From a bacterium (GTDB lineage Bacteria > Thermosulfidibacterota > Thermosulfidibacteria > Thermosulfidibacterales > JALWSI01): a DNA stretch of 9,252 nt. The stretch lies in NCBI GenBank assembly GCA_027080315.1, contig JALWSI010000016.1:1-9252 (forward strand). The letters run 5' to 3'. The translations under genes and the position numbers were made by a program. This document shows positions 1 to 6,691 of the stretch, in pieces. Under the pieces are notes generated by a model that saw only the letters and a list, made by a program, of their open reading frames with translations, had not been told where the DNA came from and searched no databases. Within the stretch, counting starts at the first letter, position 1, and every line of letters begins with the position of its first letter.

Positions 1-669
1 CCGGGCATCCAGGGGCCCCTCAGGTCTGAAGTTCTGAATGGCATAAACCTCTGCACCGTGAATCATTGTTGCAATCTCAAGAACCTGCTCGCTCCCAACA
101 AGACCTGGCACTAAGGTAGTCCTGAACTCATAGGGAACTTTTCCCTGTAGTAGTAATTGCACAGAAGGCTCAACCGCCTCCCATTCAATTCCCCCTGTCA
201 GCTCCGGATAAAGAACCGGTGGAGCCTTCACATCCATGGCCACCATATCCACCAATCCGCAGTTGATGAGGTGGCTAAGCAGCTTTGGATTTGATCCATT
301 GGTGTCCAATTTAACGTTTAGACCAAGTGACTTGATGCTCTCAAGAAGATAGGGAAGATTAGGGTGCAGGGTGGGCTCTCCCCCGGTAACCACAACCGCA
401 TCTAAAAAACCCTTACGTTCCTCTATCTTCTCAAAAATCTGCTCTGGCTCAAGAAGAGGGGACTCCTCATAGCACTCTGGCAGTACCAGGGCCCTGTTGT
501 AGCAATAAGGGCACCTGAAGGAGCAACCCCGCAAAAACAGGACCGACGCCACCCCCCCTGGATAGTCCACCAAACTCACTCCCACAAACCCGGCTATGGG
601 GGGTAGGTTATGCTCTCTGGGAGGTGTAACCACCCTCCCCTGCTTTTCACCAACAATCACCGCCTCCAT
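1..669 (-). CDS. nrdG: Anaerobic ribonucleotide reductase activating protein (radical SAM), partial
   Basis: This is the 5' part of a radical-SAM activase; 223 codons are visible and the frame is still open at the window edge. The family uses a [4Fe-4S] cluster and S-adenosylmethionine to make a 5'-deoxyadenosyl radical, which puts the glycyl radical on class III ribonucleotide reductase. The cluster motif CSFRCPYC (C49, C53, C56) is intact, preceded by VSLVDYPGG, typical of NrdG/PflA-like activases. GGEPT at 96-100 is the SAM-binding GGE motif, and LDTNGS at 121-126 fits the family. The ATG at 667-669 is the only ATG start: a TGA lies upstream in frame. Its ribosome binding site is poor, so it may be translated by coupling, as the stop of the small radical-domain gene is only 16 nt upstream. 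About 25 residues precede the usual family start (IAGFVGVSL). PflA-type activases share these motifs, but the nrdD neighbour makes NrdG far likelier. Confidence 0.9.
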   Translation of the reverse strand, partial: MEAVIVGEKQGRVVTPPREHNLPPIAGFVGVSLVDYPGGVASVLFLRGCSFRCPYCYNRALVLPECYEESPLLEPEQIFEKIEERKGFLDAVVVTGGEPTLHPNLPYLLESIKSLGLNVKLDTNGSNPKLLSHLINCGLVDMVAMDVKAPPVLYPELTGGIEWEAVEPSVQLLLQGKVPYEFRTTLVPGLVGSEQVLEIATMIHGAEVYAIQNFRPEGPLDAR

Positions 670-685
670 GGCAGAGGCTGCACAC

Positions 686-847
686 TTAAAGACTGTACTT
701 CAGCGTCTTTCTCTCTGAAAACTCCTTCTTCTTTCCCTCGTTCCAGTTCTGCACCGGACGATAGTATCCTACGATCCTTGAATAGATCTCTGTGGGCACC
801 CCCACAATCTTTCTCTTCCTGCTCTGCGTGTTATTAACTTTCTCCAT
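686..847 (-). CDS. Separate glycyl-radical domain of class III ribonucleotide reductase (NrdD C-terminus)
   Basis: This 53-residue basic protein is the C-terminal tail of NrdD encoded on its own. The motif SRIVGYYRPVQNWNEGKK matches the class III glycyl-radical loop (R-x-x-G-Y...RPVQ.WN.GK), with G27 as the predicted radical glycine. The 711-aa NrdD upstream lacks this motif, so this peptide should dock into its barrel and bring the radical near the active-site cysteines. The start chosen is the ATG at 845-847, because AGAGGAGA at 854-861 lies 6-7 nt before it. An earlier in-frame ATG at 869-871 would give 61 residues but has no ribosome binding site. The frame is the same as nrdD, whose TAA lies at 887-889. 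The cysteine pair that often precedes the radical motif in full-length NrdD is absent (KIVGVPTEIY). Function is inferred from motif and location. Confidence 0.85.
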   Translation of the reverse strand: MEKVNNTQSRKRKIVGVPTEIYSRIVGYYRPVQNWNEGKKKEFSERKTLKYSL

Positions 848-853
848 ATCAGA

Positions 854-861
854 TCTCCTCT
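854..861 (-). promoter_or_regulatory. Ribosome binding site deciding the start of the glycyl-radical peptide
   Basis: On the minus strand this reads AGAGGAGA, a strong Shine-Dalgarno core placed 6 nt before the ATG at 845-847. It lies inside the longer possible reading frame that begins at 871. It therefore argues for the inner start, and for independent translation of this peptide rather than readthrough from nrdD. Confidence 0.7.
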
Positions 862-886
862 GCTTCACCATGTTGGTAAATTTAGA

Positions 887-3022
887 TTAGGTTTCTAACC
901 TTTCAAGGGCCGCAGGGGCCTCAACTCTATCCTCTGATACCACATAGGCTGATACCACGCTGCCCGGCATAAGGTTGGCAAGCTCGTGGTCATCCACCTC
1001 CATCTCTATACCAAACTTTGCAAGCTCCTCTTCTGTATGGGGATAGGGACACACCTCGTGCTTTCCAGGTATGTAGCCGTGCACCGGGCATATGGAGAAG
1101 GTTGGAGTTATGCTGAAATAGGGCAACTTGAAGTTTTTAACCACCTTCTCAACAAGTCTCTTAACCGCATTGGGATCATCTATGCTCTCTCCCAAAAACA
1201 GATGGACAACGGTTCCTCCAGTAAACATTGCCTGAAGCTCATCCTGATGCGTGAGCACCTCCCATATGTCTTCTGTGTATCCTACAGGAAGGTGCACAGA
1301 GTTGGTGTAGTAAGGTGTATCTTTGGTACCCGCTGTTTTGATCTTTTCAAACCTCTCCCTGTCCCTCAATGCCAGGCGATAGCTGGCTCCCTCTGCAGGG
1401 GTGGCTTCAAGGTTATACAGGTTCCCTGTCTCTTCCTGGAAAACCACCAATTGCTCCCTCATTGCCTGCAGAACCCTCAAGGCCCATTCCCGGGCTCTGG
1501 GACTATAAATGGGCTCACCTAAAAGGTTCAAACAGGCCTCGTTCATTCCTGTTATCCCAATGGTTGAGAAATGATTATTCCAGTAGTAGCCAGAGCACTG
1601 CTTAACCTCTTCTAAGTACACCTTTGAGAAGGGATACAAGCCTCTCTCAGTAAAGTTCTCAATAACCTTGCGCTTTATCTCTAAAGAGACCTTGGCAAGG
1701 TTCATTAGATTAACGAGCCTTTCAAAGAACTCATCCTCATCCTTTGAAAGATATGCAATGCGAGGCAGATTTAGGGTCACCACTCCTATAGAACCGGTGA
1801 GAGGAGAAGACCCAAAAAGCCCCCCTCCCCTTCTCCTCAGCTCTCTGTTGTCTAAACGGAGGCGACAACACATAGACCTTGCATCGCTGGGGGAGAGGTC
1901 GGTGTTCACGTAGTTGGCAAAGTAGGGAATTCCGTACTTACCAGTCATCTCCCATATGGGCAGAAGGTTGGGGTCATCCCAGGGAAAGTCCTTTGAGATG
2001 TTGTAGGTGGGGATGGGAAATGTAAAGACCCGACCCTTGGCATCCCCCTCCATCATGAGCTCTGCAAAGGCTTTGTTAATCATTGATACCTCAGCTTGGA
2101 ACTCACCGTAAGTCTCATCAGTCTCTTCCCCACCAATCACCACCGGGATGTTCTCAAACTCTTTGGGCACCATGAGATCCATGGTGAGATTTGTGAAAGG
2201 GGTCTGAAAACCAACCCTCGTAGGTACATTCAGGTTAAAGATGAACTCCTGAAGGCACTGTTTAACATCGCTGTACTTCAGGCCATCCCTTCTGATGAAG
2301 GGAGCCAGAAGTGTGTCAAAGTTGCTGAAGGCCTGAGCCCCTGCCGCCTCACCTTGAAGGGTGTAAAAGAAGTTCACTATCTGACCCAAAGCTGTACGAA
2401 AATGGCGGGCGGGCTTAGACTCCACCTTTCCGGGCACTCCCCCAAATCCCCTTTTGAGCAGAGCCATAAGATCCCATCCAACACAGTAGGCCGCCAAGAT
2501 ACCCAGGTCGTGAATATGAAAGTCCCCCTCCTCGTGGGCCTGCCTCACATCGTTGGGATATATGGTGTTAAGCCAGTACTTTGCCACCACAGAAGAGGCT
2601 ATGTGAAAGTTGAGCCCCTGGAGGGAGTAGTTCATATTTGAGTTCTCTTTCACCCTCCAGTCCTCTTTCTGCAGGTACTTCTCAATAAGGTCTGTACCAC
2701 TCACCAAAGCAAGACCAAGCTCACGGCTGGCCCGTCTCTTCTCACGGTAGAGGATATACGCTTTGGCCACTGCCGGCAGGCCGTTCTCCATAAGAACCTG
2801 CTCAACAATGTCCTGAATCTCCTCTACGTGGGGAATACTCCCCTTGCGAAAGAATAGGCGAAATAGAATGAGGGAGACCTCGTCTGAAAGCTCCTGGGCC
2901 TTTTCGGCGTTGGGCTCCCCCGTAGCCTGCATCGCCTTCTCAATGGCAAGGGTTATGCGCCTCTTGTTGAAGGGAACAATAGAACCGTCTCTCTTCCGTA
3001 TTAAGTGCTCCATGGCGTGCAT
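887..3022 (-). CDS. nrdD: Anaerobic (class III) ribonucleoside-triphosphate reductase, large part lacking the glycyl-radical tail
   Basis: This 711-residue protein is the catalytic part of the oxygen-sensitive reductase that converts ribonucleotides to deoxyribonucleotides for DNA synthesis. Residues 4-100 (MEHLIRKRDGSIVPFNKRRI onward) form an ATP-cone, the allosteric domain for dATP/ATP control. The barrel follows: GDFHIHDLG (167-174), AYCVGWDL with C180, LQGEAAGAQAFSNFDTLLAP (222-241), and SMCCRLRLD with C385/C386, where the thiyl-radical cysteine is expected. TGSIGVVTLNLPR (409-421) is also typical. Near the end, CPVHGYIPGKHEVCPYPH (645-662) looks like a metal site with two Cys and two His instead of four Cys. 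The protein then runs about 49 residues and stops at TAA (887-889) without a radical-glycine motif; that motif is in the next frame downstream. The ATG at 3020-3022 is chosen because AAGGAG lies 6 nt upstream; a GTG at 3035-3037 would add five residues. Confidence 0.95.
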   Translation of the reverse strand: MHAMEHLIRKRDGSIVPFNKRRITLAIEKAMQATGEPNAEKAQELSDEVSLILFRLFFRKGSIPHVEEIQDIVEQVLMENGLPAVAKAYILYREKRRASRELGLALVSGTDLIEKYLQKEDWRVKENSNMNYSLQGLNFHIASSVVAKYWLNTIYPNDVRQAHEEGDFHIHDLGILAAYCVGWDLMALLKRGFGGVPGKVESKPARHFRTALGQIVNFFYTLQGEAAGAQAFSNFDTLLAPFIRRDGLKYSDVKQCLQEFIFNLNVPTRVGFQTPFTNLTMDLMVPKEFENIPVVIGGEETDETYGEFQAEVSMINKAFAELMMEGDAKGRVFTFPIPTYNISKDFPWDDPNLLPIWEMTGKYGIPYFANYVNTDLSPSDARSMCCRLRLDNRELRRRGGGLFGSSPLTGSIGVVTLNLPRIAYLSKDEDEFFERLVNLMNLAKVSLEIKRKVIENFTERGLYPFSKVYLEEVKQCSGYYWNNHFSTIGITGMNEACLNLLGEPIYSPRAREWALRVLQAMREQLVVFQEETGNLYNLEATPAEGASYRLALRDRERFEKIKTAGTKDTPYYTNSVHLPVGYTEDIWEVLTHQDELQAMFTGGTVVHLFLGESIDDPNAVKRLVEKVVKNFKLPYFSITPTFSICPVHGYIPGKHEVCPYPHTEEELAKFGIEMEVDDHELANLMPGSVVSAYVVSEDRVEAPAALERLET

Positions 3023-3028
3023 GCTACA

Positions 3029-3034
3029 CTCCTT
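3029..3034 (-). promoter_or_regulatory. Ribosome binding site of nrdD
   Basis: AAGGAG on the minus strand with a 6-nt spacer (TGTAGC) to the ATG at 3020-3022. It directly follows the alternative GTG start, which would place the site inside the coding region. This decides for the ATG. Confidence 0.75.
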
Positions 3035-3314: not shown

Positions 3315-3401
3315 GCCCGGGTGGCGGAACTGGTAGACGCAGGGGACTTAAAATCCCCTGGGCCTGTGCCCGTGCGGGTTCGAGTCCCGCCCCGGGCACC
3401 A
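3315..3401 (+). tRNA. tRNA-Leu (anticodon UAA)
   Basis: This is a complete class II tRNA of 87 nt with the CCA end encoded. The acceptor stem pairs GCCCGGG (3315-3321) with CCCGGGC (3391-3397), discriminator A3398, then CCA. The anticodon stem is GGGGA/TCCCC (3342-3346, 3354-3358), with loop CTTAAAA and anticodon TAA at 3349-3351. The long variable arm (GGGC-CTGT-GCCC, 3360-3371) is diagnostic of Leu/Ser/Tyr tRNAs. The T-arm is GCGGG-TTCGAGT-CCCGC (3374-3390). It reads UUA and, by wobble, UUG. Its neighbour rel starts 72 nt downstream. Confidence 0.97.
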
Positions 3402-3449: not shown

Positions 3450-3473
3450 CTATCCCTGAGTAAAGGGGAGAAT

Positions 3474-5696
3474 ATGGAATATCACAAAGAGAAGAGAGAT
3501 ACGGCCCCAACCCCAGAAGGGGAAGAGAAGGTAGAGAGACTCTCCCAAGAGCTTGTATCCCTGTTCAAGGGGGAAGATAGGGCCATTATTGAGAAAGCAA
3601 TAGAGGTAGGAAAAGAAGCCCACCAAGGGCAGTTCCGCAAATCTGGAGATCCTTACATAGTTCACCCCCTCACCGTTGCAAAGATACTGAGAGACAATAT
3701 GCACATGGACACCACCGGCGTGGCAGCAGCGGTGCTTCACGACGTAGTTGAAGACACCCATTTAACCGCTGAAGACATAGAGAGGGAGTTTGGTAAAGAG
3801 GTGGCCTTTTTGGTGGAAGGGGTATCCAAGATCGGTCGGGTAGAGGTTAAAAGCCGCCTTCAACAACAGGCAGAAACGGTTCGGAAGATGATCCTGGCCA
3901 TGTCCCAAGACATCCGGGTTCTATTGATCAAACTTGCAGACAGACTACACAACATGCGCACCATTGAGTTCATCCCTGACGAAGCCAAAAGGCGCAAAAT
4001 TGCAGAAGAAACCTTAGACATCTACGCACCCTTGGCCCACAGGCTGGGAATTGCCTGGATAAAGTGGGAACTTGAAGACTTAGCCTTTAAGCAGGTGAAC
4101 CCAGAGATGCATGCTAAGATCCAGGCTTTGGTGGCAAAGAGCAGAGAAGAGAGAGAGGCCTACATTGAGGCCATGAGGAAGATCGTTCAACAAAAACTTG
4201 AAGAGAAAGGAATAAAAGCCACCATTCAGGGGCGTCCCAAGAACTTTTACAGCATCTACAAGAAGATGGAAGAGAACGGGCTCTCTTTTGAAGAGGTATA
4301 CGATCTCACAGCCTTAAGGGTGATTGTTGACACCCCTGATGAGTGTTACACCGTTCTCGGCATAATCCACTCCAACTGGCCTCATGTTCCCGGCAGGTTC
4401 AAGGACTACATCACCCTTCCAAAACCAAACATGTACCAGTCTCTACACACCACGGTGATCGGCCCCAAAGGAGAGAGAGTAGAGTTTCAGATCCGCACCT
4501 GGGAGATGCATAGGATAGCCGAAGAGGGAATAGCCGCCCACTGGGGCTACAAAGAGAAGAAGAACCTTGTGAAAGACGAGGAGAGGCGGGTTATTCAATG
4601 GGTTAGGAACATTCTGGAGTGGCAACACGAGACCTCAGACCACAAAGACTTCTTGCGCAAACTAAAAGTGGACCTCTTCCCAGAAAAGGTGTACGTCTTC
4701 ACTCCCAAAGGAGAGGTGAAGTCGTTTCCTAAAGGCTCAACCCCCCTGGACTTCGCATACGCCATACATACAGACGTAGGACACCACTGCACAGGTGCCA
4801 GGGTTAACGGGAAACTGGTCTCTCTAAACTACCAGCTTAAAACAGGGGATCAGGTAGAGATCATCACCTCAACCAACGCCCACCCAAGCAGAGACTGGCT
4901 TAAGCTGGTCCAGACCTCCAGGGCCAGAACAAAGATACAAGCCTGGCTAAGGGCCCAAGAGAGGGAGAGGGCCTTTGCCGTGGGCAAGTCGTTGTGCCAA
5001 GCAGAGTTCAGAAAGGTGGGTAAAAACTTCAACAAATACCTTGAAGAAGGAAGACTTGACCCCATATCAAGTGACTTTGGATTCAGGACATCTGAAGATT
5101 TAGTTGTCGCTGTAGGCTTCGGAAAGGTCTCGGCAAGACAGGTTGCCATCAAGGCCATCTCTCCAGAAGAGGTGGAAGGTGAGAAGGAGAAGAAGAGGCT
5201 CTCTTCTCAGCTATTTGACAACCTAAAGCCCCGCAAGAAAATGGAGGGGGCGAAAATTTCGGTTAAAGGGGTTGATGATGTACTGGTAAGATTTGCCCGA
5301 TGCTGCAACCCCATTCCAGGGGACGAGATAGTAGGATACATAACAAGGGGGAAGGGAATAACTGTTCACGCAGCAAACTGCCCAAACCTCATGACCCTGC
5401 AGCTTGAACCAGAGCGCCAGATTGAGGTTGAGTGGGAGACAGAGAATCCTGTACCCATGCCTGTCAAGCTCTTGGTAGAGACAGAGGACACCCCAGGTAT
5501 TCTGGCAGAGATCACCACAGCCATCTCAAAACACGGCGTCAATATTGAGGAAGGAGTGCTTAAAACCGATCCCTCTCGCAAAAGAGGTATCTTGAAGTTC
5601 ACCGTTGATGTTAAAAACACCGAGCAACTTGAAGAGGTGATGCACTCTGTGCGCAAGATTCACGGGGTTATCTTTGTGAACAGGATATTTGCTTGA
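3474..5696 (+). CDS. rel: Bifunctional (p)ppGpp synthetase/hydrolase, long Rel/SpoT type
   Basis: This 740-residue cytoplasmic enzyme makes ppGpp/pppGpp from ATP and GDP/GTP during starvation and also degrades them. The HD hydrolase domain is intact: R55, H64, HDVVED (H89-D94) and LADRLHN (D156, N160). The synthetase domain has GRPKNFYSIYKKM (253-265), EVYDLTALR (D277), RFKDYITLPKPNMYQSLHTT (308-327) and VEFQIRT (E337). RFKD is the RXKD form of bifunctional enzymes, unlike the EXDD of synthetase-only RelA. A TGS domain follows (about 400-465), then a helical region, a zinc-finger-like domain (RCCNPIPGDEIVGY, C610/C611, C636) and a C-terminal ACT domain (about 662-740). The ATG at 3474 is chosen because AAGGGG lies 5 nt upstream; a TTG at 3432 would add 14 residues with no site. 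The stop overlaps the next start as TGATG. Confidence 0.97.
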   Translation: MEYHKEKRDTAPTPEGEEKVERLSQELVSLFKGEDRAIIEKAIEVGKEAHQGQFRKSGDPYIVHPLTVAKILRDNMHMDTTGVAAAVLHDVVEDTHLTAEDIEREFGKEVAFLVEGVSKIGRVEVKSRLQQQAETVRKMILAMSQDIRVLLIKLADRLHNMRTIEFIPDEAKRRKIAEETLDIYAPLAHRLGIAWIKWELEDLAFKQVNPEMHAKIQALVAKSREEREAYIEAMRKIVQQKLEEKGIKATIQGRPKNFYSIYKKMEENGLSFEEVYDLTALRVIVDTPDECYTVLGIIHSNWPHVPGRFKDYITLPKPNMYQSLHTTVIGPKGERVEFQIRTWEMHRIAEEGIAAHWGYKEKKNLVKDEERRVIQWVRNILEWQHETSDHKDFLRKLKVDLFPEKVYVFTPKGEVKSFPKGSTPLDFAYAIHTDVGHHCTGARVNGKLVSLNYQLKTGDQVEIITSTNAHPSRDWLKLVQTSRARTKIQAWLRAQERERAFAVGKSLCQAEFRKVGKNFNKYLEEGRLDPISSDFGFRTSEDLVVAVGFGKVSARQVAIKAISPEEVEGEKEKKRLSSQLFDNLKPRKKMEGAKISVKGVDDVLVRFARCCNPIPGDEIVGYITRGKGITVHAANCPNLMTLQLEPERQIEVEWETENPVPMPVKLLVETEDTPGILAEITTAISKHGVNIEEGVLKTDPSRKRGILKFTVDVKNTEQLEEVMHSVRKIHGVIFVNRIFA

Positions 5697-6691
5697 TGCG
5701 CTCTTCTGCCAAGGCCGTCGTTCTTTTCTCGGGAGGACTGGACAGTATTCTCACCGTTAAGCTACTCCAAGACCAGGGAATCTCAACCATTGCCCTGCAC
5801 TGTACAACCCCTTTTGTGGGGAATCCTTCGGATAGATTCAAAGATAGTCTTATCAAGACCTATGGCATAGAAGAGGCAATAATAAAAGACCTGTCCCTGC
5901 AGTTTTTACCGTTATTAAACCATCCTAAGCACGGATTTGGAAGTCAGCTAAACCCATGCATTGATTGCAAGATTCTATTCTTAAGAATAGCAAAAGAGAT
6001 AATGGAAGAGAAAGAAGCGAGCTTTATTGCCACAGGAGAGGTTCTGGGACAAAGACCGTTTTCACAGAGAAGAGAGGCCATGGAGCTCATTGAGAGAGAG
6101 GCAGGGGTTGAAGGCATCTTAGTTCGCCCTTTAAGCGCCAAGCTTCTTAAACCCACAATCCCCGAAACCAAAGGACTGGTGAAAAGAGAAGAGCTGTTAG
6201 ATATCCAAGGTAGAAGCAGAAAGAGGCAACTGGAGCTTGCAAAGAGATACGGATTAAAAGAGATTCCATCCCCAGCAGGAGGCTGCCTCTTAACCGATCC
6301 ATCCTATTCAGAGAGGTTGAGAAGGCTTCTCCCTTTCTTGAACAAGCTATCCCCCTCAGATGCCATTGAACTACTCGGCGTTCTCCGTATGGGACGGCTC
6401 TTTATGATTGACCCCGAGCACCTACTGATCGTGGCAAGGAACGATTCAGAGGCCAAAGGACTAAAAGCATTGCAGAGAGGAACAATCCTAACTTGCAACA
6501 CGAGCACCGGCCTGATGATTGGAGAACCAGAACCTAAAAGCCTGAACAGGGCCGCAAAGATCCTGGCAAGATACACAAGGGGCGTTGAAGGTCCAATCCA
6601 GGTAAAGTATGAGGTGAACCGCACATCAGAGGAGATCCTGGAGGTCACCCCTATGCCTCCAGAGAAGGTGGAGGAGTTCTTGGTAAGATGA
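5696..6691 (+). CDS. PP-loop ATPase, tRNA thiolation-like, with possible NFACT-R-like C-terminal domain
   Basis: This 331-residue protein has an N-terminal PP-loop (SGGLDS, 12-17), the ATP-binding signature of enzymes that adenylate a substrate, such as the tRNA thiouridylases MnmA and ThiI. NPCIDCK (C88, C91) sits where MnmA has its NPCxxCN catalytic motif. ATGEVLGQRPFSQR (112-125) and a later Cys in SPAGGCLLTDPSYSERLRRL (192-211, C197) also fit a two-cysteine sulfur-transfer enzyme. The C-terminal part (about 220-331: LRMGRLFMI, LLIVARNDSEAKGLKAL) resembles the RNA-binding NFACT-R fold that is fused to ThiI-like PP-loop domains in some bacteria. A role in tRNA sulfur modification is therefore inferred; the exact base and the sulfur donor are unknown. 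The ATG at 5696 overlaps the rel stop (TGATG) with only a weak ribosome site, suggesting translational coupling. Confidence 0.8.
   Translation: MRSSAKAVVLFSGGLDSILTVKLLQDQGISTIALHCTTPFVGNPSDRFKDSLIKTYGIEEAIIKDLSLQFLPLLNHPKHGFGSQLNPCIDCKILFLRIAKEIMEEKEASFIATGEVLGQRPFSQRREAMELIEREAGVEGILVRPLSAKLLKPTIPETKGLVKREELLDIQGRSRKRQLELAKRYGLKEIPSPAGGCLLTDPSYSERLRRLLPFLNKLSPSDAIELLGVLRMGRLFMIDPEHLLIVARNDSEAKGLKALQRGTILTCNTSTGLMIGEPEPKSLNRAAKILARYTRGVEGPIQVKYEVNRTSEEILEVTPMPPEKVEEFLVR

Follow-up and report, generated by a model that had tools for sequence, protein, structure and literature searches.

To our knowledge, class III (anaerobic) ribonucleotide reductases are regarded as holding their glycyl radical within the catalytic polypeptide. 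Solved structures of NrdD show the radical glycine on a C-terminal loop reaching into the barrel next to the finger loop (PMC4493059, PMC11226230). This radical domain is mobile even in the fused enzyme (PMC11226230), and a detached form is therefore plausible in mechanical terms. Ribonucleotide reductases read in pieces have been described, and the locus presented here shares this feature with them. The reductase of Pseudomonas aeruginosa is likewise encoded in two pieces, however it is a class II enzyme without a glycyl radical (PMC4520616). Phage nrdD genes, including those of the Jug phages, are read in pieces as well (PMC3653736; PMC12363816), but there the interruptions are introns or inteins and splicing restores the interrupted nrdD, whereas our locus would yield two proteins.

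The window, by which we mean the whole analysed stretch of 9,252 nucleotides, carries three consecutive genes on the minus strand, encoding the large chain of NrdD, a 53-aa frame and NrdG. The large chain of 711 aa (887..3022) starts at ATG 3022, with GTG 3037 as a possible alternative, and a ribosome-binding site AAGGAG (3029..3034) lies 6 nt upstream of that ATG. It consists of an ATP-cone domain (2732..3001; PF03477, E 2.7e-24, residues 8-97) followed by the catalytic barrel. As the preliminary description had stated, it ends without any radical glycine at a TAA stop that separates the two halves (887..889, read on this strand as 889-887), and the missing motif, SRIVGYYRPVQNWN, is found 39 nt downstream in the same reading frame, within the 53-aa frame that precedes nrdG. 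This small chain (686..847, minus strand; stop 688-686) begins at ATG 847, 6 nt downstream of the ribosome-binding site AGAGGAGA (854..861), while an alternative in-frame ATG at 871, giving a 61-aa form, has no ribosome-binding site. The radical glycine is Gly27, encoded by GGA (767..769), and its surroundings, SRIVG27YYRPV, align with those in fused NrdD. The nrdG gene (1..669, minus strand) encodes a radical-SAM activase of the NrdG2 type (TIGR02495, E 2.8e-59) and runs off the contig end. Elsewhere in the window, a tRNA-Leu (taa) gene lies at 3315-3401 between nrdD and relA/spoT, and a ThiI-like protein with a C-terminal NFACT-R_2 RNA-binding domain is encoded at 5693-6691 beside plsY. Reassignment of the TAA codon was considered and rejected, plsY itself terminating at TAA.

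The Pfam NRDD profile (PF13597, 562 positions) is divided between the two frames. The large chain covers only positions 1-529, and the missing end, positions 533-560, falls to the small frame, whose 61-aa form matches it with E = 3.8e-9. Scores of 592 bits against PF13597 and 1028 bits against PRK08270 indicate that the NrdD catalytic barrel is present in the large chain. For the small chain, PF13597 is the sole Pfam match, with no other family at E <= 0.001; Pfam and NCBIfam hold no dedicated family for it, the small chain matching the ends of NrdD models only, and a sequence search against solved structures gave no real match. Two hallmarks of a class III NrdD come out differently here: the NrdG activase is encoded, and the C-terminal glycyl-radical domain is not on the same chain as the barrel. 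The finger loop carries the double-cysteine motif MCCR (1862..1873), a motif class known from Thermotoga-type NrdD (PMC9669993), and the motif is invariant across our alignment of 27 rows. Because of this MCCR loop, the window enzyme is assigned by its sequence to the double-cysteine, Thermotoga-type class III ribonucleotide reductases. The zinc site before the radical loop, CPxH...CPxC in fused NrdD, survives in the window as the remnant CPVHGYIPGKHEVCPYPH (1037..1090) of the form CPVH...CPYPH; the fourth zinc-ligand cysteine is replaced in the window subfamily, and His662 is a candidate ligand.

We think it very probable that this gene row encodes a true two-chain class III ribonucleotide reductase, in which NrdG would place the radical on the small chain and this chain would dock in the barrel of the large chain. 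Support at the level of sequence comes from the gene row with nrdG, the separate initiation signals, a conserved and selected small chain, and the recurrence of the split across lineages, and the two-piece glycyl-radical enzyme with an independently translated peptide that was proposed in the preliminary description thereby gains comparative support.

One rival explanation would be a sequencing error or a dying gene, and the window does come from a draft genome of 253 contigs. However, all eight same-order relatives that we examined encode a large chain that has about 700 aa, lacks the motif and is 71-74% identical to that of the window, together with a small frame that carries it. The preliminary description had named a fused NrdD in close relatives as a refutation, and none was seen there: every close relative is split, and the fused form is confined to more distant clades. 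In these eight, the small gene starts -17 to +13 nt from the stop of the large gene, versus +39 in the window, and is usually out of frame with it, with a Shine-Dalgarno site each time. Since every one of these relatives is split, and in other frames, neither the sequencing error nor the recent split that had been entertained earlier can account for the window. Nine genomes of the order keep the arrangement, as do many families, and dN/dS of the small gene within the order is 0.04-0.21 (pairs with unsaturated dS), so the small gene is under strong purifying selection. Against a dying gene also stands a three-profile search of ten split genomes, the single-contig G108 and G244 included, which detected neither a class I nor a class II reductase and left the split NrdD as the sole reductase found; the window's genome is one of the ten, as a 94%-complete draft in which such absence is not proof. 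In genomes without another reductase the split enzyme must, to judge from these searches, be functional, and the NrdG2 activase was present in 32/32 split genomes tested. Genome comparison thus indicates that the split is a real two-gene arrangement, and we regard error or decay as next to impossible. A single fused protein might still be produced through stop-codon readthrough, ribosome hopping or frameshifting, and in the window as well as at loci L012 and L033 the halves do share a frame. However, start offsets from -17 to +39 nt span all three frames, overlaps among relatives reach 38 nt, the spacer is unconserved, and ribosome-binding sites lie upstream of the inner start. In other genomes the halves are not even adjacent, being 2.6 kb apart in G152, 0.7 kb apart in G169 and on different contigs in G333 and G305. 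Readthrough, also raised in the preliminary description, fails because each of the three possible frames is seen between the halves, and because some halves overlap and others lie on different contigs; the non-adjacent cases refute a fused product for the family as a whole; we consider it very unlikely. Independent translation from the inner ATG, by contrast, held up: a Shine-Dalgarno match of at least 5 nt at the best start accompanies 59 of 71 stand-alone radical-motif frames, versus 9.8% of the 795 stretches within NrdD that served as controls.

We then surveyed 386 bacterial genomes, mostly one to three per family, of which 154 match NRDD. A split NrdD was counted by hand in at least 44 of these, distributed over 28 families, and about seven further genomes hold divergent split types. 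Trees of the large chain require 10-12 switches between split and fused forms, at least seven of them forced by well-supported branches, and by these trees the split arose or reverted repeatedly; some switches may be re-fusions, because the direction of the changes cannot be polarised. The clade of the window comprises its own order, a WOR-3 MAG (L033, the nearest named relative by NrdD, with 68%) and another group, all of them split, and its sister group combines split L012/L133 with fused L108/L112 that have a similar linker. The position of the junction varies. In the window type it follows the CPYPHTEEEL stretch, in L015 and L139 it falls inside the zinc ribbon, and in L132, L141 and L143 it comes after coiled-coil-like tails on both chains (in L132 the large chain ends ...IEAEIKRLKKLLEETND and the small chain reads MTKEEILKKIEELERKKKEV). 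The motif of the small chain, E.YSR.VGYYRPV..WN.GK, is nearly invariant in the alignment. A proteobacterial type, RVMGYHRPV, is found in Bradyrhizobium, Paracoccus, Cupriavidus and Azospira, and that of Sulfuricurvum is related.

Annotated collections provided three phage and 20 plasmid records. The retrieved phage records H1 and H3 have a fused NrdD, and a split one is encoded on the plasmids of Bradyrhizobium, Paracoccus, Cupriavidus, Sulfuricurvum and Azospira. In the Bradyrhizobium, Sulfuricurvum and Azospira plasmid records two separate genes are annotated upstream of nrdG, where automatic NCBI annotation has put the name nrdD on the small peptide and none on the catalytic chain, with no comment.

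Several variants of the small gene were also observed. To judge from sequence, L145 (G130) and L148 (G308) encode a small radical chain fused to a glutaredoxin/thioredoxin-like domain, the counterpart of fused NrdD proteins that carry a redoxin at the C-terminus, such as L067 and L074. The small gene is present two or three times in G042 (L015, L183, L184), G005 (L185), G025 (L186) and G338 (L187), with the extra copies away from nrdD. At L162 (G021:C26:6000-11700, minus strand; about 3466-4520 of the reverse complement) a stand-alone small gene is interrupted by an element of 870 nt, which is inserted into the radical motif after its Gly codon and before its Tyr codon and contains a LAGLIDADG-like ORF. 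Its ends are group-I-like, the exon ending in T and the element in G, and the joined exons restore SRVVGYLRPVSQWN; an Rfam search of the element gave no group I intron match.

As for the mechanism of the two-chain enzyme, the catalytic barrel, which holds the MCCR finger loop, and the ATP-cone would come from the large chain, and the separately translated 53-aa chain would supply the glycyl-radical loop and a C-terminal helix. The small chain is expected to bind at the barrel mouth, in the place taken by the C-terminus of fused NrdD. NrdG would take a hydrogen from Gly27, probably in the complex with the large chain; activation of YfiD, for comparison, requires the partner enzyme (PMC8683613). 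The radical could then be handed to a finger-loop cysteine. Because the radical part is a chain of its own, a small chain cleaved by oxygen could be exchanged without rebuilding the large enzyme. For the docking we used a surrogate model, a single chain with the halves joined artificially and the TAA read as Ser. It superimposes on 8p2s_B, an intact NrdD, with Z 35.9 and an rmsd of 2.5 A for 562 residues (range 96-775); its radical loop lies where solved NrdD has it, and the register holds up to residue 775. Block pLDDT of the radical part is about 80-89, and falls to about 50 or less at the artificial junction (roughly residues 675-737). The docking is partly assumed in the surrogate, because the halves were joined artificially and the alignment consists mostly of fused relatives, so the model agrees with a docked small chain and is no proof of docking.

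Two further explanations concern the role of the small chain. The large chain might be active alone, drawing its radical from elsewhere, and the peptide might serve another role, a notion that draws on the unusual finger loop of Thermotoga-type NrdD (PMC4493059). Against it, the small chain retains the radical motif and its gene adjoins that of NrdG2, and we find it exceedingly unlikely. Alternatively, the small protein could serve only to repair an NrdD that is complete in other respects, as YfiD and Y06I do for pyruvate formate-lyase (PMC8683613), and genomes G123, G243, G368 and G076 indeed have a fused NrdD together with a stand-alone radical protein. However, the large chain of the window has no radical domain of its own to be repaired, and its genome yields only two NRDD matches, which are the large and the small chain, so that such a role is very improbable here. 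The stand-alone proteins of those four genomes (L177, L175, L176 and L178, respectively), of about 93-106 aa, have a conserved N-terminal domain followed by the NrdD radical motif at the end, and are candidate spare parts in their own genomes.

Relatives of the small chain also occur in viruses. Scanning with the small-chain profile identified 322 viral contigs that encode one, and among the best 80 of these 322, which we examined, 49 have a stand-alone radical peptide (loci within L211-L290; virus records may be fragments). A search of the whole contig detected no NrdD core in 46 of the 49, and an NrdG2 match above the cut-off in a single one, the other 48 being without. Genes for terminase, portal, capsid or head protease lie within about 4 kb at L278, L282, L290, L288 and L212. 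Ribosome-binding sites are clear in 22 of the 49 viral genes, fewer than in the bacterial small genes, and in six of the viral peptides at least one CxxC pair precedes the motif, in the manner of a zinc ribbon. By analogy with Y06I of phage T4, which plays such a part for pyruvate formate-lyase, the simplest reading is that the phage peptides may be spare parts for the NrdD of the host. Whether the radical part is more generally a detachable, exchangeable subunit, serving as an obligate chain, as an extra spare beside fused NrdD and as a phage re-activator of the anaerobic host reductase during infection, is a proposal for which we see even chances.

Our search of the open-licence literature gave no report of a class III enzyme with its radical domain on a chain of its own. 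The two-chain class III reductase thus seems previously undescribed there, and YfiD and Y06I are the nearest known systems. A large phylogeny dropped sequences of fewer than 400 residues (PMC9531940), a filter that would conceal a radical chain of 53 aa. A natural two-chain form matters because its radical part can be labelled, swapped or titrated separately, which makes the activation of NrdD by NrdG, the transfer of the radical to the double-cysteine finger loop and the damage by oxygen directly testable. With the Thermotoga-type NrdD (PDB 4U3E/4COI) the window enzyme shares the fold, the MCCR finger loop, the radical-glycine motif and the NrdG partner, and it differs in having the radical domain on a separate chain and an altered zinc ribbon. 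With YfiD/GrcA and Y06I of phage T4 (PMC8683613) it shares a small free protein that bears the radical glycine for a barrel enzyme, with phage versions in both cases. However, YfiD/GrcA rescues a pyruvate formate-lyase that normally has its own radical domain, whereas the large chain of the window has none, and the small chain of the window, unlike YfiD/GrcA, would be an obligate part of 53 aa that belongs to the NrdD family PF13597 rather than to a PFL-type family.
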